A stretch of 64,000 nucleotides of DNA from Hyphococcus sp. (GTDB lineage: Bacteria > Pseudomonadota > Alphaproteobacteria > Caulobacterales > Parvularculaceae), in NCBI GenBank assembly GCA_021776415.1, contig JAJFFY010000078.1:1-64000 (forward strand), read 5' to 3'. The translations under genes and the position numbers were made by a program. The notes under the pieces are model-generated. The model ran no database searches, was not told the origin of the DNA, and saw only the letters and a list, made by a program, of their open reading frames with translations. Shown one piece after another: positions 9,945-26,172 of this stretch (its first letter is position 1; each line of letters begins with the position of its first letter).

Positions 9945-11975
9945 CTAAATCGCGTTCATGGTCAGGAGATCATAGCTCGCCACTGCTTCGCCATCCTGAT
10001 TGGTGACCAGGACATCCCACCTGACCTCGCCATACTCGTCGTTGCGTTTTTTCTTTGATTTGGCGGTGAGGCGCACTTTGATCGTATCGCCCGCAGGAAC
10101 CGGGGTGAGGAAGCGCAGTTCATCAAGCCCGTAATTGGCGAGCACCGGTCCCGGCGCCGGATCGACAAACAGCCCCGCGGCGAAGGAAAGCAGCAGATAC
10201 CCATGGGCGACGCGACCCGGGAAGAACGGATTTGCTTTTGCGGCTTCGTCATCCATATGGGCGTAGAAATTATCGCCGGTAAATTCCGCAAAATGCTCGA
10301 TGTCTTCGAGACTGATGGTGCGCGCTTTGGTTTCAATGGTTTTACCGATTGCTAGCTCGCCAAATTTTAACCGGAAGGGGTGCGGCGCGCCGGCGTCGAT
10401 CTCCGCGCCCTTCATCCAGCTATGGGTGACGCCGGTGATGATGGCGGGCGATCCCTGGATGGCCGTGCGTTGCATATAATGTTTGACGCCGCGTACGCCA
10501 CCAAGTTCCTCGCCGCCGCCGGCGCGGCCGGGCCCGCCATGGACGAGGACGGGAAGGGGGGAGCCGTGTCCCGTGGATTCCTTGGCGCTGTCACGGTTGA
10601 TGATTGCGATGCGGCCATGATAGGCGCCGGCGCCAAGCGCGAAGTCGCGCGCGATCTCTTCGTCATGGGTAAACAGCGACATGACGAGGGAGCCTTCGCC
10701 GCGATTGCAAAGATTGATTGCGTCATCGAGGTTGTTATAGGGCATCAAAGTTGATACCGGCCCGAATGCTTCTACCTCATGCACCTTAACGGCGCTTTGA
10801 GGCGTCTCGCAGCGAAGCAGCACCGGTGAAATAAAGGCGCCATCGTTGATATCGCCGCCGATCACTTCGACTTTGTTTGGATCGCCGAACACAATCTCGG
10901 CTTCGCTCGCCAAAACGGCAATTTTCTCGCGGACATCGTCGCGCTGCGCCTGGCTGACCAGCGCACCCATGCGCACATCATCATTGGCCGGGTCGCCGAC
11001 GGTGATCTTTGCAAGGCGGGCTTTCAGCGCCTCTTCCGCGGCGCCAAGAAGGCTCATCGGCACAATTGCGCGGCGGATCGCGGTGCATTTCTGTCCGGCC
11101 TTAACCGTCATCTCACGGACGACTTCCTTGATGAAGAGATCAAACTCCGGCGTATCAGGCGTCGCGTCGGGACCCAGCACAGATGCGTTGAGGGAATCCT
11201 GTTCAGCCACGAAGCGTACGCTCTGGCTGGTGATGCGCGGATGGTTTTTCAGTTTGTTCGCTGTTTGCGCCGAGCCGGTGAAGGAAACGATATCCTGCCC
11301 GGTCAAATGATCGAACAGATCGCCGACCGATCCGACGATCAACTGAACCGCGCCTTCGGGAAGGCGCCCGGTTTCAACCATGATGCGCAGCGCCGCCTCG
11401 GCAAGATAGGCGGTGTTGGTGGCGGGCTTCACAATTGCCGGAACACCGGCGAGCAGGGTTGGCGCAAGTTTTTCGAGCATGCCCCAGACCGGAAAGTTGA
11501 ACGCATTGATATGGACAGCGGCGCCGTGGCGTGGTGTGTAAATATGCTGGCCCATAAAGGTGCCTTCACGCGATATTTGCTCCGCCGGGCCGTCCATCAA
11601 AATCCGGTCATCAGGTAAATTCTTTCGGCCGGTTGACGACATGGCAAACAGTGTCCCGGCGCCGCCTTCAATATCGATCCAGCCATCCTTGCGCGTCGCG
11701 CCGGACTGGAAGTTTAATTCATAAAGCTCTTCCTTGCGCTCCATGATCGCCTTGCCGAGGTCTTTTAAAATATAGGCGCGGTCATGAAAGGTAAGCTTGC
11801 GCAAAGCCGGGCCGCCGACATTGCGCGCATGGTCCAGCATCGCTTTGAAGTCGAGGCCGGATGAGCTGGTTTGCGCCACCGTTTCGCCGGTTACTGCTGA
11901 GGCAATCTTCACCAGTCCGCCATTGCCTTCGACCCATTTCCCTGCGGCAAAGTTCTTTAAGATTGGCGCTGACAT
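9945..11975 (-). CDS. paaZ: Bifunctional oxepin-CoA hydrolase / dehydrogenase PaaZ
   Basis: PaaZ opens the oxepin-CoA ring and oxidises the resulting aldehyde to 3-oxo-5,6-dehydrosuberyl-CoA. The start chosen is ATG 11975, with GGAG six bases upstream; a GTG lies just before it. The aldehyde dehydrogenase domain (about 1-520) has the Glu region [11 protein letters not shown] and the catalytic Cys in GQKCTAIRR. The C-terminal MaoC-type hydratase domain (about 540-676) shows [12 protein letters not shown] and [12 protein letters not shown]. Both domains look intact, unlike the dehydrogenase-dead relatives that divert the pathway. It sits between paaG and paaK in one operon. Confidence 0.95.
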
Positions 11976-11999
11976 CACTCTCTCCGATATGATTTAAAT

Positions 12000-12791
12000 T
12001 TATTGGCCTTTGAAGGCGGGTTTGCGTTTGTTCATGAATGCGTCGACGCCCTCACGGTAGTCTTGGGTTTTGCCGAGCTGACGCTGAAGGTCTCGTTCAA
12101 GATCGAGTTGTTGGTCGAGGGAGCGCGACCAGGTGGATCGAATTGCCTGTTTGGTTGCGGCAAGCCCGCGGGTTGGCGCTGCGGCAAATTTTTGAACCAG
12201 CGCGTCAGCTTCCTCAATGAGCTTATCGTCATCAACTGCTTTCCAGATCAGGCCCCATTCCTCGGCTTTCTCCGCGAGCAACGGGTCGCCAGTGAGGGCG
12301 AGGCCGAGCGCGCGCGCTTGCCCCACAAGGCGCGGTAGGCTCCAGGTGCCGCCGCTATCGGGAACCAGACCAATATTGGCAAAGGACTGAATGAATTTGG
12401 CGCTTTTTGCCGCGATAACAATGTCCGCGGCGAGGGCAATATTCGCTCCGGCGCCGGCGGCGACGCCGTTCACCGCGCAAATCACTGGCATCTCCAAACT
12501 GGTCAGCCGGCGGATTAACGGGTTGTAGCGATCCTCCAGCGATGCGCCGAGATCGACGCTATCTCCGCCCGGCGCGACAGCACGGTCGGACAAATCCTGG
12601 CCGGCGCAAAATCCGCGCCCCGATCCGGTGATCAGTAAAACCCGAACCGATTTGTCGGCTTCGACGCGATCAAGCGCGTCGCGCACTTCATCATGCATTT
12701 GGACGGTGAAGCTGTTGAGCCGGTCCGGGCGGTTCAAGGTGAGCCGCGCTGCAGCTTCTTCTATGGAAAACAGGATGGTCTCATACGCCAT
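12000..12791 (-). CDS. paaG: Epoxyphenylacetyl-CoA isomerase PaaG
   Basis: PaaG isomerises ring-1,2-epoxyphenylacetyl-CoA to oxepin-CoA and later shifts a double bond. The 263-residue crotonase-fold protein has GRGFCAGQDLSDR, ICAVNGVAAGAGANIALAAD (oxyanion hole) and the catalytic Asp region IGLVPDSGGTW. It has PaaG-specific features: NRPDRLNSF and a tail with DYREGVDAFMNKRKPAFKG. It is the first gene of the minus-strand operon, 24 bases before paaZ, and faces paaJ across a 145-bp control region. Confidence 0.93.
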   Translation of the reverse strand: MAYETILFSIEEAAARLTLNRPDRLNSFTVQMHDEVRDALDRVEADKSVRVLLITGSGRGFCAGQDLSDRAVAPGGDSVDLGASLEDRYNPLIRRLTSLEMPVICAVNGVAAGAGANIALAADIVIAAKSAKFIQSFANIGLVPDSGGTWSLPRLVGQARALGLALTGDPLLAEKAEEWGLIWKAVDDDKLIEEADALVQKFAAAPTRGLAATKQAIRSTWSRSLDQQLDLERDLQRQLGKTQDYREGVDAFMNKRKPAFKGQ

Positions 12792-12936: not shown

Positions 12937-14139
12937 ATGGCGGACGCCTATATCTGCGATGCTATCAGAACCCCGATTGGGCGATATGGCGGCGCTCTGG
13001 CTGCGTTGCGCGCCGACGATCTTGCGGCGGTTCCGCTGCGCGCGTTGAAAGAGCGCAATCGCGGCATTGAATGGACGGCGGTCGACGATTTAATTTTGGG
13101 CTGCGCCAATCAGGCCGGCGAGGACAATCGCAATGTCGCGCGGATGGCGGCGCTGCTGGCGGGGCTTGGCGAGGGCGTGCCCGGAACGACGGTCAACCGT
13201 TTGTGCGGGTCGGGCATGGATGCGGTGACCATTGCGGCGCGCTCGATCAAGGCCGGAGAGGCTAATTTGGTGATTGCCGGCGGTGCGGAATCCATGTCGC
13301 GCGCGCCGTTTGTGATGGGCAAGGCGGAGGCGGCGTTCTCGCGCAAGGCGGAGATTTTCGATACCACCCTTGGCTGGCGCTTTGTTAATCCGGTTCTGAA
13401 AGATCAGTACGGGATTGATTCCATGCCGGAGACTGCGGAAAATGTCGCCGAAGAGTTCTCGGTCACGCGCGAAGATCAGGATGCCTTCGCCCTGCGCAGT
13501 CAGCAACGCACGGCTAAAGCGCAAAGTTCGGGGAGATTTACTGCGGAAATATCGCCGGTTAAGATCCCTCAGCGAAAGGGCGACCCCAAAATTATCGACC
13601 GGGACGAGCATCCGCGAGAGACCAGCCTTGAGGCGCTTAGAAAATTAAGACCGTTTGTAAAAAAGGACGGCGTCATCACCGCCGGCAATGCGTCGGGAGT
13701 GAATGACGGCGCCGCGGCGCTGGTTGTTGCATCCGAGGACGCCGCAAAAAAATATGGCCTGACGCCGCGAGCGCGGTTTGTCGCCGGCGCGGTTGTCGGT
13801 TTGGCGCCGCGCATCATGGGCTTTGGTCCGGCGCCAGCGGCAAAGGCTGTGCTGGCGAAGGCGGGTCTGACTATCGGCGATATGGATGTGATCGAGCTCA
13901 ACGAGGCGTTCGCAGCGCAAGTGCTGGCGACCATGCGGGAGCTTGGCCTTGCCGATGACGCCGCGCATGTGAACTCCAATGGCGGCGCGATCGCCCTTGG
14001 CCACCCGCTCGGCATGTCTGGCGCCCGGCTGGTGTTAACCGCCACGGAGGAGCTGCAGCGCACGGGTGGGCGCTACGCGCTGTGCGCCATGTGCATCGGC
14101 GTTGGTCAGGGAATTGCCTGTATTATCGAGCTTGTGTAG
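12937..14139 (+). CDS. paaJ: 3-oxoadipyl-CoA thiolase PaaJ
   Basis: This thiolase cleaves 3-oxoadipyl-CoA to succinyl-CoA and acetyl-CoA and can also act on the 3-oxo-dehydrosuberyl-CoA intermediate. The 400-residue protein has the acyl-accepting Cys in VNRLCGSGMDAV (about 88-99), the His in NGGAIALGHPLGMSGAR and the second Cys in CAMCIGVGQG. It begins with YICDAIRTPIGRYGGAL, typical of the PcaF/PaaJ branch. It is read away from paaG and ends just before the paaA promoter. Confidence 0.92.
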   Translation: MADAYICDAIRTPIGRYGGALAALRADDLAAVPLRALKERNRGIEWTAVDDLILGCANQAGEDNRNVARMAALLAGLGEGVPGTTVNRLCGSGMDAVTIAARSIKAGEANLVIAGGAESMSRAPFVMGKAEAAFSRKAEIFDTTLGWRFVNPVLKDQYGIDSMPETAENVAEEFSVTREDQDAFALRSQQRTAKAQSSGRFTAEISPVKIPQRKGDPKIIDRDEHPRETSLEALRKLRPFVKKDGVITAGNASGVNDGAAALVVASEDAAKKYGLTPRARFVAGAVVGLAPRIMGFGPAPAAKAVLAKAGLTIGDMDVIELNEAFAAQVLATMRELGLADDAAHVNSNGGAIALGHPLGMSGARLVLTATEELQRTGGRYALCAMCIGVGQGIACIIELV

Positions 14140-14255: not shown

Positions 14256-15248
14256 TTGTACGCACAGGAAGTAAAATCTACCGGCAAGGGCGTGCTGTCT
14301 CTCGAGGAGATGGATCCGGTTGAGCGCGCCTTTCAGGAAAAGGTCAATGCCGGCGTCAAGATCGAGCCCAAGGACTGGATGCCGGAGGGCTATCGCAAGA
14401 CGCTGATCCGCCAGATCTCGCAACATGCCCATTCGGAAATTGTCGGCCAGCTGCCGGAAGGCAACTGGATCACCCGGGCGCCGACGCTGGAGCGCAAGGC
14501 GATCCTGATCGCCAAGGTGCAGGACGAGGCCGGGCATGGACTTTATCTTTATTGCGCAGCGGAAACTCTTGGCGTATCGCGCGATCAGATGACGGAGCAA
14601 TTGCTGTCGGGGAAGGCAAAATATTCCTCGATCTTCAATTACCCGACGCTGACATGGGCTGATATCGGCGCCATCGGCTGGCTCGTCGACGGCGCCGCGA
14701 TCATGAACCAGGTGCCATTGCAGCGCTGTTCGTTTGGGCCTTATTCCCGCGCGATGATCCGCGTCTGCAAGGAAGAAAGTTTCCACCAGCGCCAGGGCTA
14801 CGACATCATGATGAAGCTCTGCGCCGGGACGCTGGATCAAAAAGCGATGGCGCAAGATGCGCTGGATCGCTGGTGGTGGCCGTCGCTGATGATGTTCGGC
14901 CCGTCCGATGCGCAATCGGTGCATTCGGCTCAGTCGCTGGCGTGGAAGATCAAACAAGATACCAATGACGAGTTGCGCCAGAAATTTGTCGACCAGACGG
15001 TTCCACAAGCGAAGTATCTTGGCCTTTCCGTCCCCGATCCTGACCTTAAATGGAATGAGGAGAAGGGCGGGCATGATTTTGGCGAGGTCGATTGGGAAGA
15101 ATTTTTCCAAGTGGTCTCAGGCAACGGCCCTTGCAACGCTGATCGCATGGCCGCGCGCCGCAAAGCCTGGAGTGACGGCGAGTGGTTCCGTGACGCGTTG
15201 ATGGCGCATGCTGAAAAACACTCCGCCGACAAAGTCGCGGCGGAATAG
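14256..15248 (+). CDS. paaA: Phenylacetyl-CoA epoxidase subunit PaaA
   Basis: PaaA is the catalytic diiron subunit of the multicomponent epoxidase that converts phenylacetyl-CoA to the 1,2-epoxide with O2 and reducing power from PaaE. The start is TTG 14256 with a strong AGGAGG five bases upstream; no suitable ATG is nearby, so this rare start is well supported and may tune expression. The ferritin-like protein (330 residues) shows likely iron ligands E61 (HAHSEIVGQ), E91 and H94 (QDEAGHGLY), D145 and E174/H177 ([11 protein letters not shown]). First gene of the paaABCDE-paaA/C-like-paaH-paaF operon. Confidence 0.95.
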
Positions 15249-15257
15249 GAGTACTAT

Positions 15258-15542
15258 ATGTCAAACGAATGGCCGCTTTGGGAAGTGTTTATCCGTGGGC
15301 AACACGGGATGTCCCATCGCCATGTGGGCAGTCTGCATGCGCCTGACTCTGAAATGGCGATCAACAATGCGCGTGATGTTTATACCAGGCGCAATGAAGG
15401 TGTTTCGATCTGGGTCGTCAAAGCCGGCGACATCACCGCATCGGCGCCGGGAGAGAAGGGACCTTTGTTTGAGCCTGCAAATTCCAAAGTCTACCGCCAC
15501 CCGACATTTTTTGATATTCCCGATGACGTTGGGCGCATGTGA
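15258..15542 (+). CDS. paaB: Phenylacetyl-CoA epoxidase subunit PaaB
   Basis: A small 94-residue subunit that links the PaaA/PaaC heterodimers in the epoxidase. The pattern WPLWEVFIRGQHGMSHRHVG followed by MAINNARDVYTRRNEG and a short VxxAGDITAS segment is typical of PaaB. It lies nine bases after paaA behind TAGGAG, and its stop codon overlaps the paaC start (TGATG). Confidence 0.95.
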   Translation: MSNEWPLWEVFIRGQHGMSHRHVGSLHAPDSEMAINNARDVYTRRNEGVSIWVVKAGDITASAPGEKGPLFEPANSKVYRHPTFFDIPDDVGRM

Positions 15543-16285
15543 TGGCGGACAATCCAACAGTCGAATTTGCGCTGCGCATGGGCGACAATTGTCTCGTCCT
15601 TGGACAGAATGTTTCGGCTTGGTGCGGCCATGCGCCGGTGCTCGAAGAAGATATCGCCCTTGCTAATGTCGCGCTGGACCTGATCGGCCAGACGCGGATG
15701 TGGCTCGGGCTTGCGGGAGAGCTTGAAGGCAAAGGCCGCAGCGCTGACGACCTCGCTTTTTTGCGCGACGTGCGTGAATTTCGCAATTGCCTGCTGGTGG
15801 AACAGCCAAACAGCGATTTCGGTCAGACCCTGATGCGTCAGTTCCTGTTCGACGCCTGGCATCATCCGATGTTGAAAATGCTGTCGGGCGCGGCGGATGC
15901 GCGTGTTGCCGAGATTGCGGAAAAATCGGTCAAGGAAGCGGCCTATCACCTGGATCGCTCAACCGATCTGATCATCCGCCTTGGCGACGGCAGCGATGAA
16001 AGTCATCACCGCATGCAAGGAGCGCTCGATCGATTATGGCGCTATAGCGGAGAGCTCATGGCGGCAGACGCGATCGACGAGGCGGTTGTCGGGCCGGGCC
16101 TCGGAGACATTGAAGCGCAGTACAAAGATTATACCAGCAAGGTGTTTGGCGAGGCGACGCTAACGATCCCTGAGGCTGCGTTTATGCAAAAGGGCGGCAA
16201 GGTCGGACTGCATACGGAAGCGCTTGGTCACATGTTGGCGGACATGCAATTTCTTCAGCGCAGCTATCCCGGGGCGCAGTGGTGA
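15542..16285 (+). CDS. paaC: Phenylacetyl-CoA epoxidase subunit PaaC
   Basis: PaaC is the structural ferritin-like partner of PaaA. The start is ATG 15542, overlapping the paaB stop; a GTG three bases earlier is a less likely alternative. The 247-residue protein shows RMGDNCLVLGQNVSAWCGHAP near the N-terminus (given here in parts of a conserved segment), LANVALDLIGQTR and KEAAYHLDRS, which resembles the degenerate metal site of PaaC. It is tightly coupled with paaB and paaD. Confidence 0.93.
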   Translation: MADNPTVEFALRMGDNCLVLGQNVSAWCGHAPVLEEDIALANVALDLIGQTRMWLGLAGELEGKGRSADDLAFLRDVREFRNCLLVEQPNSDFGQTLMRQFLFDAWHHPMLKMLSGAADARVAEIAEKSVKEAAYHLDRSTDLIIRLGDGSDESHHRMQGALDRLWRYSGELMAADAIDEAVVGPGLGDIEAQYKDYTSKVFGEATLTIPEAAFMQKGGKVGLHTEALGHMLADMQFLQRSYPGAQW

Positions 16286-16289
16286 TCCC

Positions 16290-16790
16290 ATGGCGGCGCT
16301 CGCGACACATCTTTCGATAAAAGAAATCTGGAGCTGGCTCGAAGATGTGCCGGATCCGGAGATCCCCGTCATCTCGGTGGTTGAGCTTGGCATCGTTCGC
16401 GACGTCAGCCTCGACGGCGCTGCTATCGTCGTGACGGTAACGCCGACTTATTCCGGCTGTCCGGCGACGGCGGTGATTGCGATGGATATCGAACAGGCGA
16501 TCCGCAAACACGGCATTGATGAGGTGCGCATCGAGACGCAATTGTCGCCCGCCTGGACGACTGACTGGATCACTGAATCGGCGCGCGAAAAACTTAATGC
16601 CTATGGCATCGCACCTCCGGAAAAAGGCGCCGCCTGCGCTGGTGCGTTGCGGACACGGACACGGATTAAATGTCCGCTATGCGGTTCAGCCAATACCGAA
16701 TGTATCAGCCAGTTCGGCTCAACCCCTTGCAAGGCGCATTATCGCTGTAAGGACTGTCTGGAACCATTTGACTATTTTAAAAGCTTTTAG
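16290..16790 (+). CDS. paaD: Phenylacetate degradation protein PaaD
   Basis: PaaD is a DUF59/MIP18-type protein needed for epoxidase function, probably in Fe-S or metal-centre maturation. The start is ATG 16290, four bases after the paaC stop; upstream in-frame codons would overlap paaC. The 166-residue product has the DUF59 core (VPDPEIPVISVVELGIVRDV and YSGCPATAVIAMDI) and a C-terminal Cys-rich tail (CPLCGS, then C at TPCKAHYRCKDC) like a zinc ribbon. Confidence 0.93.
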   Translation: MAALATHLSIKEIWSWLEDVPDPEIPVISVVELGIVRDVSLDGAAIVVTVTPTYSGCPATAVIAMDIEQAIRKHGIDEVRIETQLSPAWTTDWITESAREKLNAYGIAPPEKGAACAGALRTRTRIKCPLCGSANTECISQFGSTPCKAHYRCKDCLEPFDYFKSF

Positions 16791-16810: not shown

Positions 16811-17884
16811 ATGGCGCAGTTCTATCCTCTTCGCGTGAGCGATATTCACCGGGAAACCCGAGACAGCGTGGTTGTCACGTTGGAGCCGCCAGCGGATGCG
16901 CGCGAGGCGTTTGACTTCACGCAGGGCCAGTATCTGACGTTTCGCCGCAAGTTTGACGGCGAAGAAATGCGACGGTCCTATTCAGTGTGTTCAGGCGTTG
17001 CGGATGGTACCTTGCGGGTTGGCATTAAAAAGGTGGATGGTGGCTGGTTTTCATCCTTCGCCAATGATGAGTTAAAAGTCGGCGACACACTCGACGCCAT
17101 GGCGCCCATGGGCAATTTCCATGCACCGCTGATGCCGGGCGCAGTCCGGCGCTATTTGGGGTTTGCAGGCGGCAGCGGCATTACGCCGTTGATTAGCATT
17201 ATCAAAACCGTTCTCAATGCAGAGCCGCAATCTACCTTCACGTTGGTTTATGGAAACCGGTCGGCGACGTCGATCATGTTTAAAGAAGAGCTCGAAGATA
17301 TCAAAAACCTTCATATGGGTCGCTTTAATGTGATCCATATTCTTGAAAGTGAAACCGACATTGAACTGTTCAGTGGTCTTTTGACTGCCGAGAAATGCGA
17401 TGCGCTTTTTGGTCGTTGGGTTAATGTCGAGGGTGCGAATTTTGCCTTTATCTGCGGGCCTGAACCGATGATGTTGACGGTAGCGGCCGCCCTTAAGGCG
17501 GCCGGCATGGATGCGGCGAAAATCAAATTTGAGCTGTTCGCATCAGCCCAGCCCGGAAAAGCAAAAGCCCGCGCGGCGCCGAAGCAAGGCGACGATACCG
17601 CGGCTGTCTGTAAGGCGACAATTATCATGGACGGCGTTCGTCGCGAGGTTGATATCGCCAAACACGGCCAATCGGTGCTGGAGGCCGCGCTTGGCGCAGA
17701 CCTCGACGCACCGTTTGCCTGCCGGGCCGGCGTCTGCTCGACTTGCCGGGCAAAAGTGATTGAAGGCGAAGCTGAGATGCTGGCCAATTACGCGCTTGAA
17801 GATTACGAGGTAGAGCGCGGCTATGTGCTAACCTGCCAATGCTATCCTTTAAGCGACAAGCTTGTTGTAGATTATGATCAATAG
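16811..17884 (+). CDS. paaE: Epoxidase reductase PaaE
   Basis: PaaE passes electrons from NADPH through FAD and a 2Fe-2S cluster to the PaaA diiron centre. The 357-residue protein has an N-terminal ferredoxin-reductase module (RRSYSVCSG for FAD binding; GGSGITPLISIIKTVL for NADPH) and a C-terminal plant-type ferredoxin domain with CRAGVCSTCRAKV and a fourth Cys in VLTCQCYP. It starts 20 bases after paaD. Confidence 0.95.
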   Translation: MAQFYPLRVSDIHRETRDSVVVTLEPPADAREAFDFTQGQYLTFRRKFDGEEMRRSYSVCSGVADGTLRVGIKKVDGGWFSSFANDELKVGDTLDAMAPMGNFHAPLMPGAVRRYLGFAGGSGITPLISIIKTVLNAEPQSTFTLVYGNRSATSIMFKEELEDIKNLHMGRFNVIHILESETDIELFSGLLTAEKCDALFGRWVNVEGANFAFICGPEPMMLTVAAALKAAGMDAAKIKFELFASAQPGKAKARAAPKQGDDTAAVCKATIIMDGVRREVDIAKHGQSVLEAALGADLDAPFACRAGVCSTCRAKVIEGEAEMLANYALEDYEVERGYVLTCQCYPLSDKLVVDYDQ

Positions 17885-18678: not shown

Positions 18679-20163
18679 ATGTTTAGCACCAAAACCAAGA
18701 TTGGCGTGTGCGGCGCGGGCGCCATGGGCGCGGGCATTGCGCAAGTGGCGGCGCAGGCCGGTCACGATGTCGTTGTGCTTGACCGCGATGACAAGGCGCT
18801 GGCGCGCGGGCGCACGAGCGTTGAAAAAGGCGCCAGCGCACTGTTGAAACGCGGCAAGATTGACGCCGCTGAAGCGGAGGCGCTTGCCTCTCGCGTTTGC
18901 TGGACGCTGGAAATCAGCGCGTTGGCCGACGCTGATCTCGTGATTGAAGCGATTATAGAAGACGCTGCCATCAAGCATGCCCTATATACCCAGCTTGAGC
19001 GCGTGCTGGACAACCGAGCTGTGTTAGCGACCAATACGTCGTCTTTGTCGGTGAGCCGACTTGCCGAAGGGCTGGCGCGTCCGGCTCAGTTTCTCGGCTT
19101 ACATTTTTTCAACCCCGCGCCGATCATGAAACTTGTCGAGGTGGTCTCGGGCGCCGACACTGATCCGGCGATCGCGGCGTCGGCGCGTGCGCTGATGGAG
19201 GGTTGGGGCAAGGTCGCGGTCAATGCGAGGGATGTACCGGGGTTCATCGTCAACCGGGTTGCCCGTCCGTTCTATGGCGAGGGCTGGCGCGCGCTGGAAG
19301 AACAGGCGAGTGACGCGGCGACGCTTGATTTTCTGTATAAGGACTTTGCCGGATTTCGAATGGGGCCATTTGAGCTTGGCGACCTGATCGGACACGATAT
19401 CAACAATGCTGCCGCGCAATCGATTTTCGACGCCTATAATGGCCGCACCCGGTTCGTCCCGTCGCAGGCGCAGTTGCGCCTGGTCGCTGCCGGGCGGCTT
19501 GGCCGCAAATCCGGGCGGGGCGTTTATGACTATGACGAAGATGCGCAAATGCCCGCGCCGAGCTTTGTTGAATGTGACAACCAGGGCCCTCTAGGCGATA
19601 TCATCGTGGGGCCTGACACATCTGCCTTTCAGGCTCTGTTAACTGCGGCCGGCGTTATGTTTGAGATAAAACAAAATATCGCGCCTGGGTTTGCCGAGAT
19701 CGACAATGTCCTTGTCGGCTTTAACGATGGGCGTAGCGCCGGCGCACTTGCGGCGGAATTTCAAAAGCCGGCCGTGTGCTTCGACTGGATGAGTGATCCG
19801 GCGACGGCGACAGCGCTGGCATTTTCGGCTTCCGGCGATGAGGCGCGCGAGACTGCGCTGCGGCTTGCGGCGCGGTGTGGCAAGCGCGCGGTTGAACTTC
19901 GCGACCGGCCGGGGATGGTGGTCTTCCGCACGCTTTGCCAACTCGCCAATTGCGCCGCCGACGCGGTCCGCGATCAGGTTGCCGAGGCTGACGCGATTGA
20001 CCGCGCCATGATCACCGGCGTCAACTATCCCTTCGGGCCCATAGCGTGGGCGAAACAGCAGGGCTATGGACGCGTCGCGGCGGCGCTCGGCGCCATCGCC
20101 AAGGAGATCGGCGACAGCCGATACAGCCCGTGCGAAGTTTTAAGCGCCAGCGGCGAGGATTAA
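18679..20163 (+). CDS. paaH: 3-hydroxyadipyl-CoA dehydrogenase PaaH
   Basis: PaaH oxidises 3-hydroxyadipyl-CoA with NAD+. The 494-residue protein starts with the Rossmann motif GAGAMGAGIAQVAAQAGH (about 11-28), has the catalytic His in GLHFFNPAPIMKLVEVV and two C-terminal dehydrogenase domains (first at VPGFIVNRVARPFY; second at RPGMVVFRTLCQLANCAAD), the layout of PaaH rather than of shorter FadB2 enzymes. It lies 18 bases after the ferritin-like gene and 3 before paaF. Confidence 0.92.
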   Translation: MFSTKTKIGVCGAGAMGAGIAQVAAQAGHDVVVLDRDDKALARGRTSVEKGASALLKRGKIDAAEAEALASRVCWTLEISALADADLVIEAIIEDAAIKHALYTQLERVLDNRAVLATNTSSLSVSRLAEGLARPAQFLGLHFFNPAPIMKLVEVVSGADTDPAIAASARALMEGWGKVAVNARDVPGFIVNRVARPFYGEGWRALEEQASDAATLDFLYKDFAGFRMGPFELGDLIGHDINNAAAQSIFDAYNGRTRFVPSQAQLRLVAAGRLGRKSGRGVYDYDEDAQMPAPSFVECDNQGPLGDIIVGPDTSAFQALLTAAGVMFEIKQNIAPGFAEIDNVLVGFNDGRSAGALAAEFQKPAVCFDWMSDPATATALAFSASGDEARETALRLAARCGKRAVELRDRPGMVVFRTLCQLANCAADAVRDQVAEADAIDRAMITGVNYPFGPIAWAKQQGYGRVAAALGAIAKEIGDSRYSPCEVLSASGED

Positions 20164-20166
20164 AAA

Positions 20167-20952
20167 ATGAACCCATCTGATGAAGCGGTATTGATTGTTG
20201 AAGCGCCGGCCAGCGACGTCCGGCTGTTGCGGCTCAACCGTCCGGACAAACGCAATGCGATTTCGACGGCGCTGCTTCTGGCCATAGCTGAGGCGCTGGA
20301 GGAGGGCGATGCTACCGAGGCGATTGGGTGTCTGGTGATGACCGGCGGCGATAAAATCTTTGCAGCCGGCGCCGATATTGGCGAGATGGCGCCCAAGCTG
20401 GCGCCGGAGGGGTTGGCCGATATGCGGCCGGCATTGTGGCGGCGCATACGGGCGATCCGTAAGCCGATCATTGCCGCGGTTGAAGGCTGGTGCCTAGGCG
20501 CTGGCAATGAACTCATGATGTGTTGTGATATTGCGGTCGCCTCACGCGAGGCGAAATTTGGCCAGCCGGAAACCAATCTTGGCATCATTCCCGGCGCCGG
20601 TGGCGGTGCGACGCTGGCTCGGATTATCGGGCGGTCCCGGGCGATGGCGATGGTCTTGACCGGTAAGCCGATTACCGCCGAAGAGGCGCTGCAATTCGGT
20701 CTGGTGGCGGAGATATGCGATCCCGGTGCGGCGACTGGGCGCGCTGTTGAACTCGCGCAGGAGATTGCCGCGCGCGCGCCGCTGGCCATGCAGCAGGGCA
20801 AAGCCGTCGTCAAAGCGGTGTTCGATCAGCCCCACAACGCCCATCTCGATTTTGAGCGCCAGGCGTTCTCGCTTTTGTTTTCAACCGCAGACAAAAAAGA
20901 GGGCGTCGCGGCTTTTCAGGAAAAAAGAAAACCGCAATGGAAGGGGCGGTAG
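20167..20952 (+). CDS. paaF: 2,3-dehydroadipyl-CoA hydratase PaaF
   Basis: PaaF hydrates 2,3-dehydroadipyl-CoA. The 261-residue crotonase-fold protein shows NRPDKRNAIS, FAAGADIGEMA, the oxyanion loop AVEGWCLGAGNELMMCCD with a catalytic Glu and a second Glu in QPETNLGIIPGAGGGATL. Both acidic residues needed for hydration are present, unlike PaaG. It is the last gene of the paaA operon and converges on the aminotransferase gene with only four bases between them. Confidence 0.9.
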   Translation: MNPSDEAVLIVEAPASDVRLLRLNRPDKRNAISTALLLAIAEALEEGDATEAIGCLVMTGGDKIFAAGADIGEMAPKLAPEGLADMRPALWRRIRAIRKPIIAAVEGWCLGAGNELMMCCDIAVASREAKFGQPETNLGIIPGAGGGATLARIIGRSRAMAMVLTGKPITAEEALQFGLVAEICDPGAATGRAVELAQEIAARAPLAMQQGKAVVKAVFDQPHNAHLDFERQAFSLLFSTADKKEGVAAFQEKRKPQWKGR

Positions 20953-20956
20953 TCCC

Positions 20957-22150
20957 TCAACGATTGAGCACCTGGTTCAGGGACTGAACCAGATAGCCGA
21001 CATTGCCGCCATGGACACCGCATAGATTTATCCGCCCGGCGCCGACAATATAAATCGCAAATTCCTCGCGCATCACCGTGACATCCTCGATCGTCATTGG
21101 CAGCAATGAAAACATGCCGTTTTGCTCGGTGATATAGGAAAGCTGGTTTCCAAGCCCGCTTTCACGAGCGGCGTCGACTAGCAATTTGCGGCTATTGCGC
21201 ATCGCCTGATTCATGGTCGTCAATTCGTCTCGCCAGATTTGCGTCAGCTCAGGCGAGTGTAAGATCTCCGAGACAATCGCGCCGCCATGGGCGGGTGGCA
21301 TCGAATAAGACGCGCGGGCAATATTGATGATGTGTGATTGGACTGCAGCGGCTTGTTCCGGATTGCGCCCGGCAAAGATGATCGCGCCGGTGCGTTCGCG
21401 ATAGAGGCCGAAATTTTTTGAGCAGGAATAGGTGATCAACACTTCCGGCAGACGCCGGGTCATTTCCCGGACAATATAGGCGTCGGTCTCAAGGTCCGTC
21501 GCAAACCCGTGATAGGCGGTGTCGATCAACGGCAGAAAACCGCGCTCGGCTGCTATATCGATGACGGCGTCGATCTGCTCATGGGACAAATCGGCGCCAG
21601 TCGGATTATGGCAGGCGCCATGCAGCAACAAAACGTCCGTAGGCCCCAGTTTTTTGACGCTGGCGAGGAACCCGTCAAAGTCGATCATGGAGGTCTTCAC
21701 ATCGTAATAGGGGATCATGTGGACATCCAACCCAGCGGCGGCCAGCAGCGGTTTATGATTGGCCCATGTCGGCGCGCCGGCGGAAATGCCCGCGGCCTCA
21801 TTTCGAGCGAGCAGTTCGCCCGCCAGCCGCAACGCGCCGCAACCGCCAGGCGACTGGACCGCGATGGTTCGCCCCGAGGCGACCTGTTCGCTGTCGGGGC
21901 CAAAAACTAGCTTCAATATCGCCTCGCAAAATCCCGGCGCGCCCTCGGCGGGCGTATAGGCTTTGGTGGTCTGCTTCTTGATCACCGCGCGCTCGGCCAG
22001 ATCCACCGCGCCCATGACCGGCGTTGCGCCGTCTTCTGTCCGGTAGACGCCGACACCAAGGTCAATCTTCTCCTCACGCTTATCGGTCGCCGATAATTTT
22101 GTAAGGCCTAGTATTGCATCGGGCGCGAGCAGGTCGGTTTTTGCGAACAT
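20957..22150 (-). CDS. Aromatic/aspartate class I aminotransferase
   Basis: A PLP-dependent fold-type I enzyme (397 residues) of the AspC/TyrB family. It shows KIDLGVGVYRTEDG near residue 28, NPTGADLS, the PLP-lysine segment SCSKNFGLYRERTG, and a substrate Arg near the C-terminus (GRINLCG). TyrB-type enzymes transaminate phenylalanine and tyrosine to arylpyruvates. The neighbours (paa genes on one side; an AsnC regulator and a 2-oxoacid dehydrogenase on the other) favour phenylalanine as substrate here, but aspartate activity cannot be excluded. Reads in the same direction as the AsnC gene, 44 bases downstream of it, so the two may be co-transcribed. Confidence 0.9.
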   Translation of the reverse strand: MFAKTDLLAPDAILGLTKLSATDKREEKIDLGVGVYRTEDGATPVMGAVDLAERAVIKKQTTKAYTPAEGAPGFCEAILKLVFGPDSEQVASGRTIAVQSPGGCGALRLAGELLARNEAAGISAGAPTWANHKPLLAAAGLDVHMIPYYDVKTSMIDFDGFLASVKKLGPTDVLLLHGACHNPTGADLSHEQIDAVIDIAAERGFLPLIDTAYHGFATDLETDAYIVREMTRRLPEVLITYSCSKNFGLYRERTGAIIFAGRNPEQAAAVQSHIINIARASYSMPPAHGGAIVSEILHSPELTQIWRDELTTMNQAMRNSRKLLVDAARESGLGNQLSYITEQNGMFSLLPMTIEDVTVMREEFAIYIVGAGRINLCGVHGGNVGYLVQSLNQVLNR

Positions 22151-22194
22151 GGAAAGTCCCTCAACTTGAATGAAACGATACGCGAATTAAAATA

Positions 22195-22653
22195 TCAGAG
22201 CTGTAACTCGGTGGTAGACTTATGCTCGCGCAGTGCGATGTTTGACGAGGCGGAGGCAACGCTTGGATGAGACAGTATTTTGTCCATCAATAAAAGCTCA
22301 AAGGCCTTAATGTCGCGCACTCTTATCGTCAGGATGTAATCATTCGGCCCGGTGATCGAAAAACATTGCATGATTGCAGGCGTATCGTCGACGAGTTTTT
22401 CAAAAGCGTCGCGATGTTTGGAATTGTGGGAGATAATATTCACATAAACGAAGGCGCAGACCGTATGCCCGGTTTCTTCCGGGTTCAAAATGGTGACGCG
22501 GCCGCGAATGACGTTGTTGGCTTCCAGCTCCTTGAGCCGTCGCCAAAGCGTGGTGTGCGACACCCCGGTGGCGAGGGCCACCTGTTCTAGCGTCGCTGTG
22601 GCGTCACGCTGGATCACGCGCAGAATATCGATATGGGATTGGGTCAGCTTCAT
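22195..22653 (-). CDS. Lrp/AsnC family transcriptional regulator
   Basis: A 152-residue Lrp/AsnC regulator. The N-terminal winged helix-turn-helix is seen at residues 5-55 (DILRVIQRDATATLEQVALA, SHTTLWRRLKELEANNVI) and the C-terminal RAM ligand-binding domain from about 65 on, with the usual GPNDYILTIRVRD pattern. Such regulators respond to amino acids and often control their own catabolic genes. It is divergent from the fused E1 gene and upstream of the aminotransferase, so it probably senses an aromatic (or branched-chain) amino acid and controls both sides. Confidence 0.92.
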   Translation of the reverse strand: MKLTQSHIDILRVIQRDATATLEQVALATGVSHTTLWRRLKELEANNVIRGRVTILNPEETGHTVCAFVYVNIISHNSKHRDAFEKLVDDTPAIMQCFSITGPNDYILTIRVRDIKAFELLLMDKILSHPSVASASSNIALREHKSTTELQL

Positions 22654-22663
22654 GATGATGAGA

Positions 22664-22678
22664 CTATTTCAGAAATAG
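22664..22678. promoter_or_regulatory. Palindrome upstream of AsnC gene
   Basis: CTATTT-CAG-AAATAG, a perfect 6-bp dyad with a 3-base centre, lies 11 bases upstream of the regulator start in an AT-rich divergent promoter region (22654-22823). The 15-bp A/T-rich form suits an Lrp/AsnC binding site, which suggests autoregulation and possibly control of the E1-E2 genes. No binding data support this; it is read from the sequence alone. Confidence 0.5.
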
Positions 22679-22823
22679 CTATAAAATGGATAATTCATCT
22701 CAGTAACATTGGCAATATGGAGAAAAAAAGAAACAAAATCAATGGAATAAGGTGTAATTTATTCAGCCATAACGCCGAATAATCGGCCCAGCAGGCGCTA
22801 TTTTGCGCGGACAGGTGAGCGGT

Positions 22824-24932
22824 ATGTCGAGCAATCATGTGGGAATCGGGCAGGCCGTTATCGGTGATGCGGGACCGATCGCAAATCACATTGATCCGTC
22901 GATTGACTGGCAGCGAATTGCCTATCTGGTGCACCTGTCGCGCGGGCTCGATGCATTGGAAGAGACCCGGCTGGTTCCGGAGCGCAAGATTTTATATCAG
23001 TTCTCCGCGCGCGGCCACGACATGGCGCAAGTACTGCTTGGAACGCAACTGACCCACAAACATGACGCGATTTGCGGCTATTACCGCTCGCGGCCGATTC
23101 TGCTTTCGCTCGGCGTTGATCTTGTGGAGGCGCTGGGCTCATCGATGGCGCGGGCCGGCGGTTATTCCGACGGGCGAGATATCGGCGTTGTGTTTAACTA
23201 TCCCAACCCCAACGGCGCCTGCGCCTTGCCAATGTGCGGCGGCGTCGGCGCGCAATACACGCCGACTGCCGGTTGGGCGCAGGCGGTTAAATTTCGCGCC
23301 GAGACGCTCGGCGATGAAGCATACAAAGGCGCCATCGGCGTTGTTCTCGGCGGCGAGGCGTCTGTCGCAACCAACGGGTTTTGGTCGGCGCTCACCATTG
23401 CGACGACGCAAAAATTACCGATGCTGTTTTATGTCGAAGACAATGGTTACGGCATTTCGGTTCCTTCGACCATGCAAACCCCGGGCGCTGATATTGCCGC
23501 CAATCTTGCAAGTTTTAAAAACCTGAAAATCCTCTCTGGCGACGGAACCGACCCGGGCGGGGCGGGGAGCCTCATTAAACAAGCTGTCGAGCATGTTCGC
23601 GGCGGGCAGGGGCCTTGCCTTTTGCGGTTGATCGTGCCGCGTCTGCAGGGCCATAGTTTTCAGGATACGCAAACCTATAAGACCGATGATTTCGTGAAAT
23701 CGGAATGGGCGCGCGATCCATTGCCGAAACTGAAATCTTACCTGGTTCCATCGCAAATGAGCGAGAGCCAATGGGATGCGATTGCCGAGCAGGCTGGAGA
23801 TAAAACCGAGAAAGCCCGCGAGGCCGCCGAGGCGATTAGCCCGGCCGATCCGGCGAGCGTGATGCACTATGTGTTTTCTGAAGATCAGCCGCAACAGATG
23901 GGCGGCCTGCGCGGAGCGGTGGACCTGCCGCCCGGTGATGCGGCGCCGACGCCGGAAGGCCCGCGCATCAATATGGTGACGGCGTTGCGCCGGACATTGG
24001 ATTATGAGCTTTCGATCAATCCGAAGATGGTGCTGTTCGGCGAAGATGTCGGGCCGAAGGGCGGGGTTCATGCGGTGACTTTGGGTTTGCAGGAAAAACA
24101 CGGGCGCTCACGGGTATTCGATACCAGCCTATCTGAGGAGGGCATCATCGGCCGCGCTGTGGGCATGGCGGTAAACGGATTGCTTCCAGTGCCTGAGATC
24201 CAGTTTCGAAAATATGCTGAGCCAGCGATGGAACAACTGACCGATTGCGGCACCATGCGCTGGCGCACCCATAACCGGTTTGCCGCGCCCATGGTGGTGC
24301 GGATGCCGGTGGGATTTTTTAAATGCGGCGACCCGTGGCATAGCCAGACCAATGAGGTTCAGTTTGTCCATTCGCCTGGTTGGCGCGTTGCGGTTCCGTC
24401 CAATGCCGAAGATGCGACCGGGTTGTTGCGTGCGTCGCTGCGTGGCGATGATCCGGTGATGTTTTTTGAACATCGCGCCATGCTTGACGATCCCTGGGCG
24501 CGCCGCGCCTATCCGGGTGACGATTATGTGCTGCCATTTGGCAAGGCGAAGCTGACCCGTGAGGGCAGCGACATTACCATCGTCACATGGGGCGCAATGG
24601 TGAAACGTTGCGAGGAAGCAGCGGACGCATCTGGGCGGGGTGCTGACGTCATTGATCTGCGCACGCTGGTCCCGTGGGACAAGCAAGCCGTGCTTACCTC
24701 GGTTGCAAAAACCGCACGCTGTCTGATCGTCCATGAGGATCTGCGCACCGGCGGTTTTGGCGGAGAGATTGCCGCTGTGGTCGCCGATGAGGCGTTTCTC
24801 GCGCTCGACGCGCCGGTGTCGCGGTTGACGATGCCGGATATTCCAAGTCCCCACAATCCGGTTCTGCTCGATAGCGTTGTGCCGGATGTCCATATGATCC
24901 GTAATAAGATCGAACAGCTTTGCGCATTTTAG
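22824..24932 (+). CDS. Fused E1 (alpha-beta) 2-oxoacid dehydrogenase
   Basis: A 702-residue ThDP-dependent E1 component in which the alpha and beta subunits form one chain. The start is ATG 22824 with AGGTGAG upstream. The alpha half (about 1-330) carries GYYRSRPILLSLG and the ThDP region GGEASVATNG...EDNGYGISVP; the usual GDG is replaced by GGE. The beta half begins near residue 360 (INMVTALRRTLDYEL) with LFGEDVGPKGGV, DTSLSEEGIIGRAVGMA and PEIQFRKYAEPAMEQL. Fused E1s of this kind usually act on branched-chain 2-oxoacids. Next to an aromatic aminotransferase and the phenylacetyl-CoA pathway, I infer phenylpyruvate may be the substrate. Confidence 0.85.
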   Translation: MSSNHVGIGQAVIGDAGPIANHIDPSIDWQRIAYLVHLSRGLDALEETRLVPERKILYQFSARGHDMAQVLLGTQLTHKHDAICGYYRSRPILLSLGVDLVEALGSSMARAGGYSDGRDIGVVFNYPNPNGACALPMCGGVGAQYTPTAGWAQAVKFRAETLGDEAYKGAIGVVLGGEASVATNGFWSALTIATTQKLPMLFYVEDNGYGISVPSTMQTPGADIAANLASFKNLKILSGDGTDPGGAGSLIKQAVEHVRGGQGPCLLRLIVPRLQGHSFQDTQTYKTDDFVKSEWARDPLPKLKSYLVPSQMSESQWDAIAEQAGDKTEKAREAAEAISPADPASVMHYVFSEDQPQQMGGLRGAVDLPPGDAAPTPEGPRINMVTALRRTLDYELSINPKMVLFGEDVGPKGGVHAVTLGLQEKHGRSRVFDTSLSEEGIIGRAVGMAVNGLLPVPEIQFRKYAEPAMEQLTDCGTMRWRTHNRFAAPMVVRMPVGFFKCGDPWHSQTNEVQFVHSPGWRVAVPSNAEDATGLLRASLRGDDPVMFFEHRAMLDDPWARRAYPGDDYVLPFGKAKLTREGSDITIVTWGAMVKRCEEAADASGRGADVIDLRTLVPWDKQAVLTSVAKTARCLIVHEDLRTGGFGGEIAAVVADEAFLALDAPVSRLTMPDIPSPHNPVLLDSVVPDVHMIRNKIEQLCAF

Positions 24933-24942
24933 GGACATCGCC

Positions 24943-26172
24943 ATGAATGAGATTGTTGATGTTGTTGCGCCTGTAGAACAGGAGGGCACCAAGGCTGTCG
25001 TCAAAAGCTGGTACAAATCAGTTGGTGAGGCGATCGCCGAGGGTGAGCCGCTGGTCGAGCTGGAGACAGACAAAGTCGCCGTCGAAGTGCCGTCGCCGTT
25101 CACGGGGGTCGTTGCGGAGATTTTGATCGATGCTGACGGCGAGGCTGAGCCCGGCGGCGTGCTCGGGCGTTTGCATCTCGTGCGATTGCGCGAAGGCGCG
25201 GGCGCAGATGTGGCGCCGGTAAAAACTTCCCCGGCGGCAGTGCGGGCGCCGCAAACAGCGAGCGCCGCCATTGTATCGCACGAGCACCACCTGTCCCCCT
25301 CGGTCCGGCGCCTGGTGCGCGAGCATGATCTTCAGCCCTCGCTTATCAACGGCACCGGCAAGGGTGGCCGGCTGACGCGCGGTGATGTTCAGGCGTTTAT
25401 TGCAAGCGGCGCCGCACCGCGCGCCGCAAAATCTCACGAGCAACCAATGGTTCCGACGAGCGCTGGCCCGGCTCGTCAAATCCCTCATGATTCAATGCGC
25501 CGGCGCATTGCCGAGCATATGTCGCATTCGGTGCAGACCGCTCCGCATGTAACTGCAGTGTTTGAAGCTGATTTCTCGGCCATCATCGCGCATCGTAATG
25601 CGCATAAGGACGAATATATAGGCCGCGGCGCCAAGCTCACTTTTACGGCGTATTTTATCGCCGCCTGCGTTGAGGCGATGAAGGTAACGCCGACTGTTAA
25701 CAGCCGGTGGTGCGACGATCATCTTGACGTGTTTGAAGATATAAATATCGGCATCGGCGTCGCGCTTGGTGACAAGGGCTTGATCGTGCCGGTGATCGGG
25801 CGCGCGCAAACCCGGTCGCATTTTGAGATTGCCAAGGAGCTGCAAACCCTGACCGAGAAAGCGCGCAACAACGCGCTGGCGCCCGCAGACGTTCGCGGCG
25901 GCACTTTTTCGATCTCAAATCACGGAACCTCAGGCTCGATTGTCGCCACGCCGATTATTATCAATCAGCCGCAATCGGCGATTCTGGGCGTCGGTAAGCT
26001 CGAAAAGCGCGTTGTCGTACGCACAATCGACGGCGCCGATGCGATTTTGATACGTCCCATGGCGTTCGTATCACTGACCATCGATCACCGCGTCCTCGAT
26101 GGCGCGCAGACCAACGCATGGCTGACAAGGTTTGTCGAAGTCATCGAAAACTGGCCGCTGCACGCATCTTAA
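24943..26172 (+). CDS. 2-oxoacid dehydrogenase E2 acyltransferase
   Basis: A 409-residue dihydrolipoyl acyltransferase that passes the acyl group from E1 to CoA. Domains in order: lipoyl domain (1-80) with the modified Lys in ETDKVAVEV (about K44); a peripheral subunit-binding domain at about 110-145 (SPSVRRLVREHDL, KGGRLTRGDVQAF); and a catalytic domain from about 180 with the active-site DHRVLDGAQ near residue 382. It follows E1 by 10 bases. No E3 gene is adjacent; the dihydrolipoyl dehydrogenase at 41806 may supply E3. Acyl specificity cannot be told from the sequence alone. Confidence 0.9.
   Translation: MNEIVDVVAPVEQEGTKAVVKSWYKSVGEAIAEGEPLVELETDKVAVEVPSPFTGVVAEILIDADGEAEPGGVLGRLHLVRLREGAGADVAPVKTSPAAVRAPQTASAAIVSHEHHLSPSVRRLVREHDLQPSLINGTGKGGRLTRGDVQAFIASGAAPRAAKSHEQPMVPTSAGPARQIPHDSMRRRIAEHMSHSVQTAPHVTAVFEADFSAIIAHRNAHKDEYIGRGAKLTFTAYFIAACVEAMKVTPTVNSRWCDDHLDVFEDINIGIGVALGDKGLIVPVIGRAQTRSHFEIAKELQTLTEKARNNALAPADVRGGTFSISNHGTSGSIVATPIIINQPQSAILGVGKLEKRVVVRTIDGADAILIRPMAFVSLTIDHRVLDGAQTNAWLTRFVEVIENWPLHAS

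Follow-up and report, generated by a model that had tools for sequence, protein, structure and literature searches.

A predicted phenylpyruvate dehydrogenase complex beside the phenylacetyl-CoA catabolic genes of Hyphococcus sp.

The window, a stretch of 64,000 nucleotides from Hyphococcus sp., carries a 2-oxoacid dehydrogenase E1-E2 pair next to a phenylacetyl-CoA catabolic (paa) cluster. We read this pair as a phenylpyruvate dehydrogenase complex, with phenylpyruvate as its main substrate or one of its main substrates, at a probability of roughly 0.86; worded in this manner, the figure overlaps with the alternative of a broad substrate range that is weighed below. The complex would very probably make phenylacetyl-CoA directly from phenylpyruvate. 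The initial annotation had proposed such a module, and the predicted substrate is supported by the co-occurrence of E1 with PaaA and by the counts of its linkage to paa genes. Gene content, co-occurrence, linkage and exclusivity among relatives are observations, from which we infer the substrate and the product.

The E1-E2 locus and the paa cluster

The genes for the aminotransferase, the Lrp/AsnC regulator, E1 and E2 are all intact in the window, which also encodes a candidate E3:

20957..22150, minus strand: aminotransferase, 397 aa, aromatic amino acid transaminase family NF006719 (474 bits against a cut-off of 377)
22195..22653, minus strand: Lrp/AsnC-family regulator, 152 aa, divergent from E1
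22654..22823, no strand: region between Lrp and E1, containing the palindrome CTATTTCAGAAATAG, a speculative candidate operator
22824..24932, plus strand: 2-oxoacid dehydrogenase E1 with alpha and beta fused, a proposed phenylpyruvate dehydrogenase
24943..26172, plus strand: E2 dihydrolipoyl acyltransferase, 409 aa, with a proposed phenylacetyl transfer to CoA
41806..43221, plus strand: dihydrolipoyl dehydrogenase, candidate E3 (TIGR01350 over cut-off)

E1 has 702 aa from the ATG or 709 aa from a TTG at 22803, and the E2 ORF begins 10 bases 3' of the E1 ORF. The Pfam domains E1_dh, Transket_pyr and Transketolase_C are found in a single E1 chain, and E2 has lipoyl, E3-binding and catalytic (acyltransferase) domains; the make-up of both proteins is that of a ThDP 2-oxoacid dehydrogenase complex with an alpha/beta-type E1. 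The locus had been described as a fused E1-E2, and both genes are real, but the fusion is between E1-alpha and E1-beta, with E2 placed by the domain scan in a separate ORF. In E1, we take the stretch from residue 175 to be that of ThDP/metal binding, and His 277 and His 506 presumably stand at the places of the active-site histidines. E2 contains ETDKVAVEV at position 41, presumably the lipoyl motif, and DHRVLDG at 381. A second dihydrolipoyl dehydrogenase copy of the genome belongs to the gene set C67 discussed below, and an E3-related gene stands directly 3' of E2 in L110, L121, L136, L144 and L150, among the best 80 loci of the named-genome scan.

The aromatic-type aminotransferase and the Lrp/AsnC regulator of the initial annotation are present, and the aminotransferase gene ends, as had been noted, 4 bases from the end of the convergent paaF. 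The closest solved structures of the aminotransferase are aspartate aminotransferases, with aromatic ones next, so its substrate is not settled by sequence. The paa cluster reported beside E1-E2 was recovered with paaK, Z, G, J, A, B, C, D, E, H and F, all of which but paaK represent the phenylacetyl-CoA pathway proper, and PaaH and PaaF fall below their equivalog cut-offs:

8620..9930, minus strand: paaK, phenylacetate-CoA ligase (TIGR02155 over cut-off)
9945..11978, minus strand: paaZ (TIGR02278 over cut-off)
12000..12791, minus strand: paaG (TIGR02280 over cut-off)
12937..14139, plus strand: paaJ, 3-oxoadipyl-CoA thiolase (over cut-off)
14256..15248, plus strand: paaA (TIGR02156 over cut-off)
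15258..15542, plus strand: paaB
15539..16285, plus strand: paaC (TIGR02158 over cut-off)
16224..16790, plus strand: paaD (TIGR02159 over cut-off; start uncertain)
16811..17884, plus strand: paaE (TIGR02160 just over cut-off)
18679..20163, plus strand: paaH (TIGR02279 is the best match but falls short of its equivalog cut-off; NF006124 exceeds its own)
20167..20952, plus strand: paaF (the top-scoring NCBIfam family, though under the equivalog cut-off)

Co-occurrence of E1 with PaaA

Every E1-bearing genome that was examined for PaaA proved positive. Among 60 relatives of the window organism, its own genome included, E1 orthologs were found in 16 and PaaA in all 16 of these; the E1 of G010 and that of G024 are truncated by a contig end. 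In 96 genomes of another family, E1 is present in 15, and PaaA in 15 of these 15 compared with 17 of the 96 overall (Fisher 1e-15, a value that, like the one given below, overstates independence because the genomes are related and some are incomplete); one of the 17, G429, has a PaaA fragment under the curated cut-off. The Alphaproteobacteria class sample gave PaaA in 4/4 E1 genomes against a background of 39/289, with the window's own genome in both counts. PaaA was also found in 50/50 named genomes picked for carrying E1, of which at least two (L120 and L138) coincide with genomes of the other samples by their PaaA coordinates. These 50, examined for PaaA and the oxidoreductase, come from the best 80 loci after removal of close kin of the window, of every acidobacterial record and of further MAGs or short contigs.

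Linkage and neighbourhood

With regard to the 16 relatives with E1, it is linked to paa genes in seven and unlinked in four (G003, G004, G009 and G026), while five stop at contig breaks. In G004, E1 and PaaA lie about 540 kb apart in the same genome. A tblastn scan of named genomes (E ≤1e-3) returned at least 575 stretches encoding an E1 relative, which is not an ortholog count, and the best 80 of these are the named loci used here. Markers of paa lie nearby in 37 of these best 80, and in 30 of the 54 that have full flanks of at least 9 kb on each side (26 with short flanks fall outside), leaving 24 of the 54 without a nearby marker. The survey bears out the conserved linkage of E1 with paa in related genomes that the initial annotation had made a check of its proposal, and the counts of co-occurrence and linkage set the neighbourhood beyond chance.

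On a quick E1 tree, the paa-linkage label needs a minimum of 9 changes, 7 of them forced by starred branches; an NRPS-associated paralog and L085 are long branches of unsure placement. The 37 paa-linked loci show 12 different nearest-gene arrangements. A PaaX-type gene cluster (one member scanned) occurs in 11 loci. Across the same best 80, aminotransferase family NF006719 is found in 28 loci and an Lrp gene in 59; in 48 loci the Lrp gene points away from E1 and lies no more than about 700 bases upstream of it. Palindromes loosely like that of the window were seen by eye in L093, L095, L100 and L101; in the 48 Lrp-E1 regions, no conserved operator was found beyond the window's close kin, and most have no palindrome arm of at least 6.

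Unlinked copies away from paa occur in Pseudomonas and rhizobia among the best 80 loci. Nine scanned neighbours of unlinked copies from G004 and G003 revealed no leucine/valine catabolic neighbourhood: they comprise a FadJ/FadB-type gene, two thymidine phosphorylases, HemN, a MacA/MacB/NodT-type efflux set and two without a match. One neighbour scanned from G007 had no match either. An E1 relative is carried by 92 plasmid records; of the 25 plasmid matches listed, 4 are named, as 'transketolase C-terminal domain-containing protein', and the other 21 are nameless.

Relation to the ferredoxin oxidoreductase

The fused indolepyruvate ferredoxin oxidoreductase has about 1180 aa, is ferredoxin-linked and lacks a lipoyl E2. 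We take its NF009588 members and Ior1 of Phaeobacter to be a single family. Its proposed reaction, from phenylpyruvate to phenylacetyl-CoA (PMC5577590 for Ior1; PMC9765128 for IorAB), is the one proposed for the window complex, but its architecture differs, and E1 excludes it in the window's relatives. Among the 25 relatives with PaaA, the oxidoreductase is found in 0/16 with E1 and in 8/9 without it (p 8e-6), and the exclusivity holds also in the four E1 genomes of the class sample. The window's own genome (85% complete) gave no match to NF009588 at E 1e-100. Furthermore, the 22 PaaA-positive relatives without phenylalanine hydroxylase (PhhA) each carry one and only one of the two, E1 in 15 and the oxidoreductase in 7. 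The contrast that the initial annotation drew with the ferredoxin oxidoreductase thus stands among PaaA-bearing relatives, but a universal exclusivity is rejected, as 24 of the 50 named E1 genomes carry both.

Proposed route

The aminotransferase would convert Phe to phenylpyruvate. In this enzyme family, E1 decarboxylates its substrate on ThDP and reductively acylates the lipoyl arm; the fused E1 would do so with phenylpyruvate and the arm of its E2, which would pass the phenylacetyl group to CoA, while E3 would reoxidise the lipoamide with NAD+. Phenylacetyl-CoA would go straight into PaaABCDE, and the complex would fill the role of the ferredoxin oxidoreductase by different chemistry. The Lrp regulator adjoining E1 is probably a sensor of an amino acid or of the product. 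The suggestion that such a route skips PaaK fits the entry from Phe, but the cluster retains paaK, which would give the pathway two inlets.

A precedent for this reaction is the alpha/beta complex chemistry of PglB/PglC, pyruvate-dehydrogenase-like proteins described in pristinamycin (L-phenylglycine) biosynthesis in Streptomyces pristinaespiralis as converting phenylpyruvate to phenylacetyl-CoA (PMC7089894). Compared by description, PglB/PglC are encoded by distinct alpha and beta genes within an actinomycete biosynthetic operon, whereas the window enzyme has an alpha-beta fusion, its own E2 and catabolic neighbours. The window E1 shows a genetic tie to phenylacetyl-CoA-using enzymes, and this bears on the working likeness, not on membership. 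In the one open library of papers searched, we found no description of a catabolic ThDP complex of this kind.

Alternative readings

An ordinary branched-chain 2-oxoacid dehydrogenase adjoining paa by chance would share the superfamily, E1 alpha/beta domains and a lipoyl E2 with the window complex, whose beta half is closest to solved pyruvate, 2-oxoacid and 2-oxoisovalerate dehydrogenases; the solved relatives among the matches listed take their names from pyruvate, branched-chain or general 2-oxoacids, none from aromatic ones. We hold this to be very unlikely, since it leaves the tie between E1 and PaaA unexplained and since the genome has a separate alpha-beta-E2-Lpd set, C67, whose scores against solved 2-oxoisovalerate dehydrogenase are 537 and 570 bits, compared with about 52 for the alpha and 247 for the beta part of the window E1. 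C67 is close to these structures in both subunits and the window E1 is not, which argues against a branched-chain main function. The solved enzymes (1qs0/2bp7) have separate alpha and beta chains, and conserved beta loops of the window E1 differ from theirs (FRKYAEP for FADYFYP, GDPWH for GGQTH). A pyruvate dehydrogenase as the main function was rejected as well, the NCBIfam E1 models remaining below cut-off (e.g. 215 of 321 and 131 of 411 bits).

A broad aryl-pyruvate dehydrogenase, for which indolepyruvate or 4-hydroxyphenylpyruvate would weigh at least as much as phenylpyruvate, appears unlikely, and it overlaps with our reading insofar as phenylpyruvate would be among several main substrates. 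E1 looks like a counterpart to an oxidoreductase that takes its name from indolepyruvate, and copies away from paa exist, yet E1 is tied to PaaA, part of the PaaABCE enzyme described as acting on phenylacetyl-CoA (PMC7497051), and shows an inverse pattern with phenylalanine hydroxylase. That E1-E2 and paa merely travel together in mobile catabolic islands, with no common pathway, is hardly credible: the plasmid records and the patchy distribution of E1 would suit it, but genomes with an unlinked E1 also have PaaA, and E1 and the oxidoreductase exclude each other among relatives.

Implications

Beyond the window, it seems fairly probable that the E1 alpha-beta fusion represents an undescribed family, a lipoyl-dependent, CoA-acylating phenylpyruvate dehydrogenase that would be a standard aerobic entry of Phe into paa across many proteobacteria and some acidobacteria, could replace the ferredoxin oxidoreductase, and would at least once have been drawn, along with PaaABCDE, into the NRPS operon of a natural product. 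The NRPS-associated paralog lies in an apparent NRPS-CmlA-E1-E2-PaaABCDE-NRPS operon in G002, for which phenylacetyl-CoA would presumably be the starting material of an epoxide-, oxepin- or tropone-type unit. If true, the proposed complex would close a gap in the aerobic breakdown of Phe. Of the 22 relatives that have paa but no phenylalanine hydroxylase, 15 also lack the oxidoreductase, and for these the E1 complex is the candidate entry among the oxidoreductase and E1 routes compared. Such a complex, probably NAD-linked, could in addition provide phenylacetyl-CoA as a precursor for tropone or phenylglycine products, and an as yet uncharacterised natural product is suggested by the NRPS operon.

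Organisation of the locus

The assembly that holds the window is alphaproteobacterial (3.3 Mb, 100 contigs, 85% complete). The genes of phenylacetyl-CoA catabolism (paa) and those of a 2-oxoacid dehydrogenase complex are arranged in it as follows:

Left block: TetR-family gene, then paaK, paaZ and paaG (these three on the minus strand)
Middle block, plus strand: paaJ, paaA, paaB, paaC, paaD, paaE, a PaaC-like gene, paaH, paaF
Right block, minus strand: aminotransferase and Lrp gene
Right block, 22824-24932, plus strand: fused E1-alpha/E1-beta dehydrogenase (E1)
Right block, 24943-26172, plus strand: acyltransferase (E2)

The initial annotation read the aminotransferase, the regulator and a "fused E1-E2" as a possible module converting phenylpyruvate to phenylacetyl-CoA. 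The aminotransferase does end 4 bases off paaF, as had been stated; the fusion has to be corrected, since the domain scan shows E1-alpha joined to E1-beta and not to E2, which starts 10 bases after E1. The Lrp gene is divergent from E1, with 170 bases between them, and this intergenic region (22654-22823) contains the palindrome CTATTTCAGAAATAG, loosely similar palindromes being found in close kin. The PaaC-like gene between paaE and paaH (17908-18660) is of the PaaA_PaaC family (PF05138), and its relatives form one cluster in 10 of the best 80 of at least 575 loci, including rhizobia. An 1100-aa outer-membrane beta-barrel protein, TonB-receptor-like, is encoded at 26236-29538 and remains next to E2 in G006, G009, G019 and G026, four relatives of the window's genome.

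Family placement of E1

E1 stays under the curated cut-offs of every NCBIfam pyruvate dehydrogenase model it matched. The closest solved structures to its beta half are pyruvate, 2-oxoacid and 2-oxoisovalerate dehydrogenases (about 247-261 bits), and its alpha half is distant from all of these (at most 92 bits, to 1um9; 52 bits to 1qs0). Two beta loops are invariant across an 11-member alignment yet unlike the solved enzymes, namely FRKYA (461-465), in place of the FADY of 1qs0 and 1um9, and GDPWHSQ (502-508), which surrounds the histidine; both may shape the substrate pocket. Elsewhere in the genome, the gene set C67 scores 537 and 570 bits against the solved 2-oxoisovalerate dehydrogenase, possesses its own E2 and dihydrolipoyl dehydrogenase, and is likely a BCKDH. 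Because of this likely BCKDH and the scores of E1, the window complex is probably an extra 2-oxoacid dehydrogenase with a different substrate. The same genome encodes a second long E1-like ORF of 748 aa (G000:C75, L038:4683-6929), for which an NCBIfam search at 1e-60 gave no match.

Physical linkage to the paa genes

A scan of named genomes yielded at least 575 stretches encoding an E1 relative at E 1e-3, of which the best 80 (69-91% identity) were kept. According to titles and tree labels, these come mostly from Alphaproteobacteria, with some Gammaproteobacteria and Acidobacteria, and the nearest named relatives of the window E1 among them are Marinicaulis MAGs (Parvularculaceae). The expected linkage was not refuted: within these best 80 of at least 575, 37 loci contain at least one strong paa marker, as do 30 of the 54 with at least 9 kb on both flanks, the other 24, including all six full-flank Pseudomonas loci, having none nearby. 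E2 is found in 74 of the 80, an Lrp gene in 59 (divergent from and close to E1 in 48), the aminotransferase in 28 and a gene cluster with a PaaX-type repressor (one member scanned) in 11. In the 37 linked loci, the nearest paa-related gene occurs in 12 combinations of gene, side and strand, and the linked/unlinked label changes at least nine times on the E1 tree (61 labelled rows), seven changes being forced by starred branches. In Sphingorhabdus soli, a PaaE-like ORF is followed 19 bases on by the E1 ORF.

Within the window's family, 7 of the 16 E1 genomes are linked to paa (G000, the window's own, G002, G006, G007, G011, G019 and G031), 4 are unlinked (G003, G004, at a distance of about 540 kb, G009 and G026) and 5 stop at contig breaks. 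In five rhizobial loci (L143, L151, L156, L164 and L167), no paa marker is close to the E1-E2 pair, and genes clustering with MinC-like and MinD/ParA-like proteins are found in its vicinity. The E1 of a record titled Mycobacterium sp. KBS0706 (L116) nests among Inquilinus on the tree, and the name looks doubtful.

Co-occurrence with PaaA and the ferredoxin oxidoreductase

At a threshold of E < 1e-150, which splits orthologs from paralogs, 16 of the 60 relatives, with the window's own genome counted in, have E1 (two copies in G002, a partial one in G010), and 25 have PaaA, among them all 16 E1 carriers. These p-values of association are inflated by the kinship of the genomes: within the window's family, PaaA accompanies E1 in 16/16 genomes vs 9/20 without E1 (Fisher 6e-4), within the genus in 15/15 vs 7/13 (p 0.005), and of the 96 genomes sampled from a second family 15 have E1, 17 have PaaA (16 above the curated cut-off; G429 a fragment) and 15 have both (p 1e-15), on one contig and at most about 10 kb apart in 9 of the 15. 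Among 289 evenly drawn Alphaproteobacteria, all 4 E1 genomes, the window's own included, are among the 39 with PaaA. PaaA was also present in all 50 named genomes picked for carrying E1 (from the best 80 of at least 575 loci), at least two of which (L120 and L138) match genomes in other samples by PaaA coordinates. No genome with E1 and without PaaA appeared among all those searched for both.

Passages of a Phaeobacter review (PMC5577590) and of an Aromatoleum paper (PMC9765128) assign the direct step from phenylpyruvate to phenylacetyl-CoA to ferredoxin oxidoreductases, in Phaeobacter to Ior1. With regard to DISPLACEMENT of the known enzyme, the fused oxidoreductase is found, among the 25 PaaA relatives, in 0/16 with E1 vs 8/9 without (p 8e-6), and the 13 that are at least 95% complete divide into 8 with E1 and 5 with the oxidoreductase, with no exception. 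In G015, G018 and G023 its match shares a contig with that of PaaA, 2.8-3.5 kb away. The sole PaaA relative with neither enzyme, G005, carries phenylalanine hydroxylase; 22 of the 25, several of them incomplete, lack this hydroxylase, and they comprise 15 with E1 and 7 with the oxidoreductase, none having both or neither. The class sample agrees (0/4 E1 genomes vs 31/35 other PaaA genomes). The contrast between a ThDP complex and the oxidoreductase holds among the PaaA relatives and in the class sample, but not in 24 of the 50 named E1 genomes (from the best 80 of at least 575 loci), where both are present; this is rarer than 31/35 (p 2e-4), the two samples being of different make-up.

A paralogous locus in G002

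A contig of the relative G002 (L086, G002:C22:1-11153; 11,153 bases, both ends cut) carries, on one strand and almost gapless, an NRPS fragment, a CmlA-type diiron hydroxylase, E1, E2, PaaA, B, C, D and E and another NRPS fragment, apparently as one operon judging by the spacing. Phenylacetyl-CoA is the evident link between this E1-E2 and the downstream epoxidase. Its E1 has 55% identity to that of the window and a long branch on the tree, so its orthology is less sure. The locus is apparently a natural-product cluster, so far uncharacterised, that would encode both a source of phenylacetyl-CoA and an epoxidase.

Predicted substrate

In principle the reaction is already known: PglB/PglC of pristinamycin biosynthesis are described (PMC7089894) as a complex that resembles pyruvate dehydrogenase and turns phenylpyruvate into phenylacetyl-CoA. 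The portion of a tropone review that mentions direct conversion names no dehydrogenase complex (PMC7497051). In the open literature searched, we found no description of a catabolic ThDP complex for this step, nor of a catabolic E1-E2 family that is widespread and associated with paa. Phenylpyruvate is predicted, with a probability of roughly 0.86, to be the main physiological substrate of the window complex, or one of the main ones.
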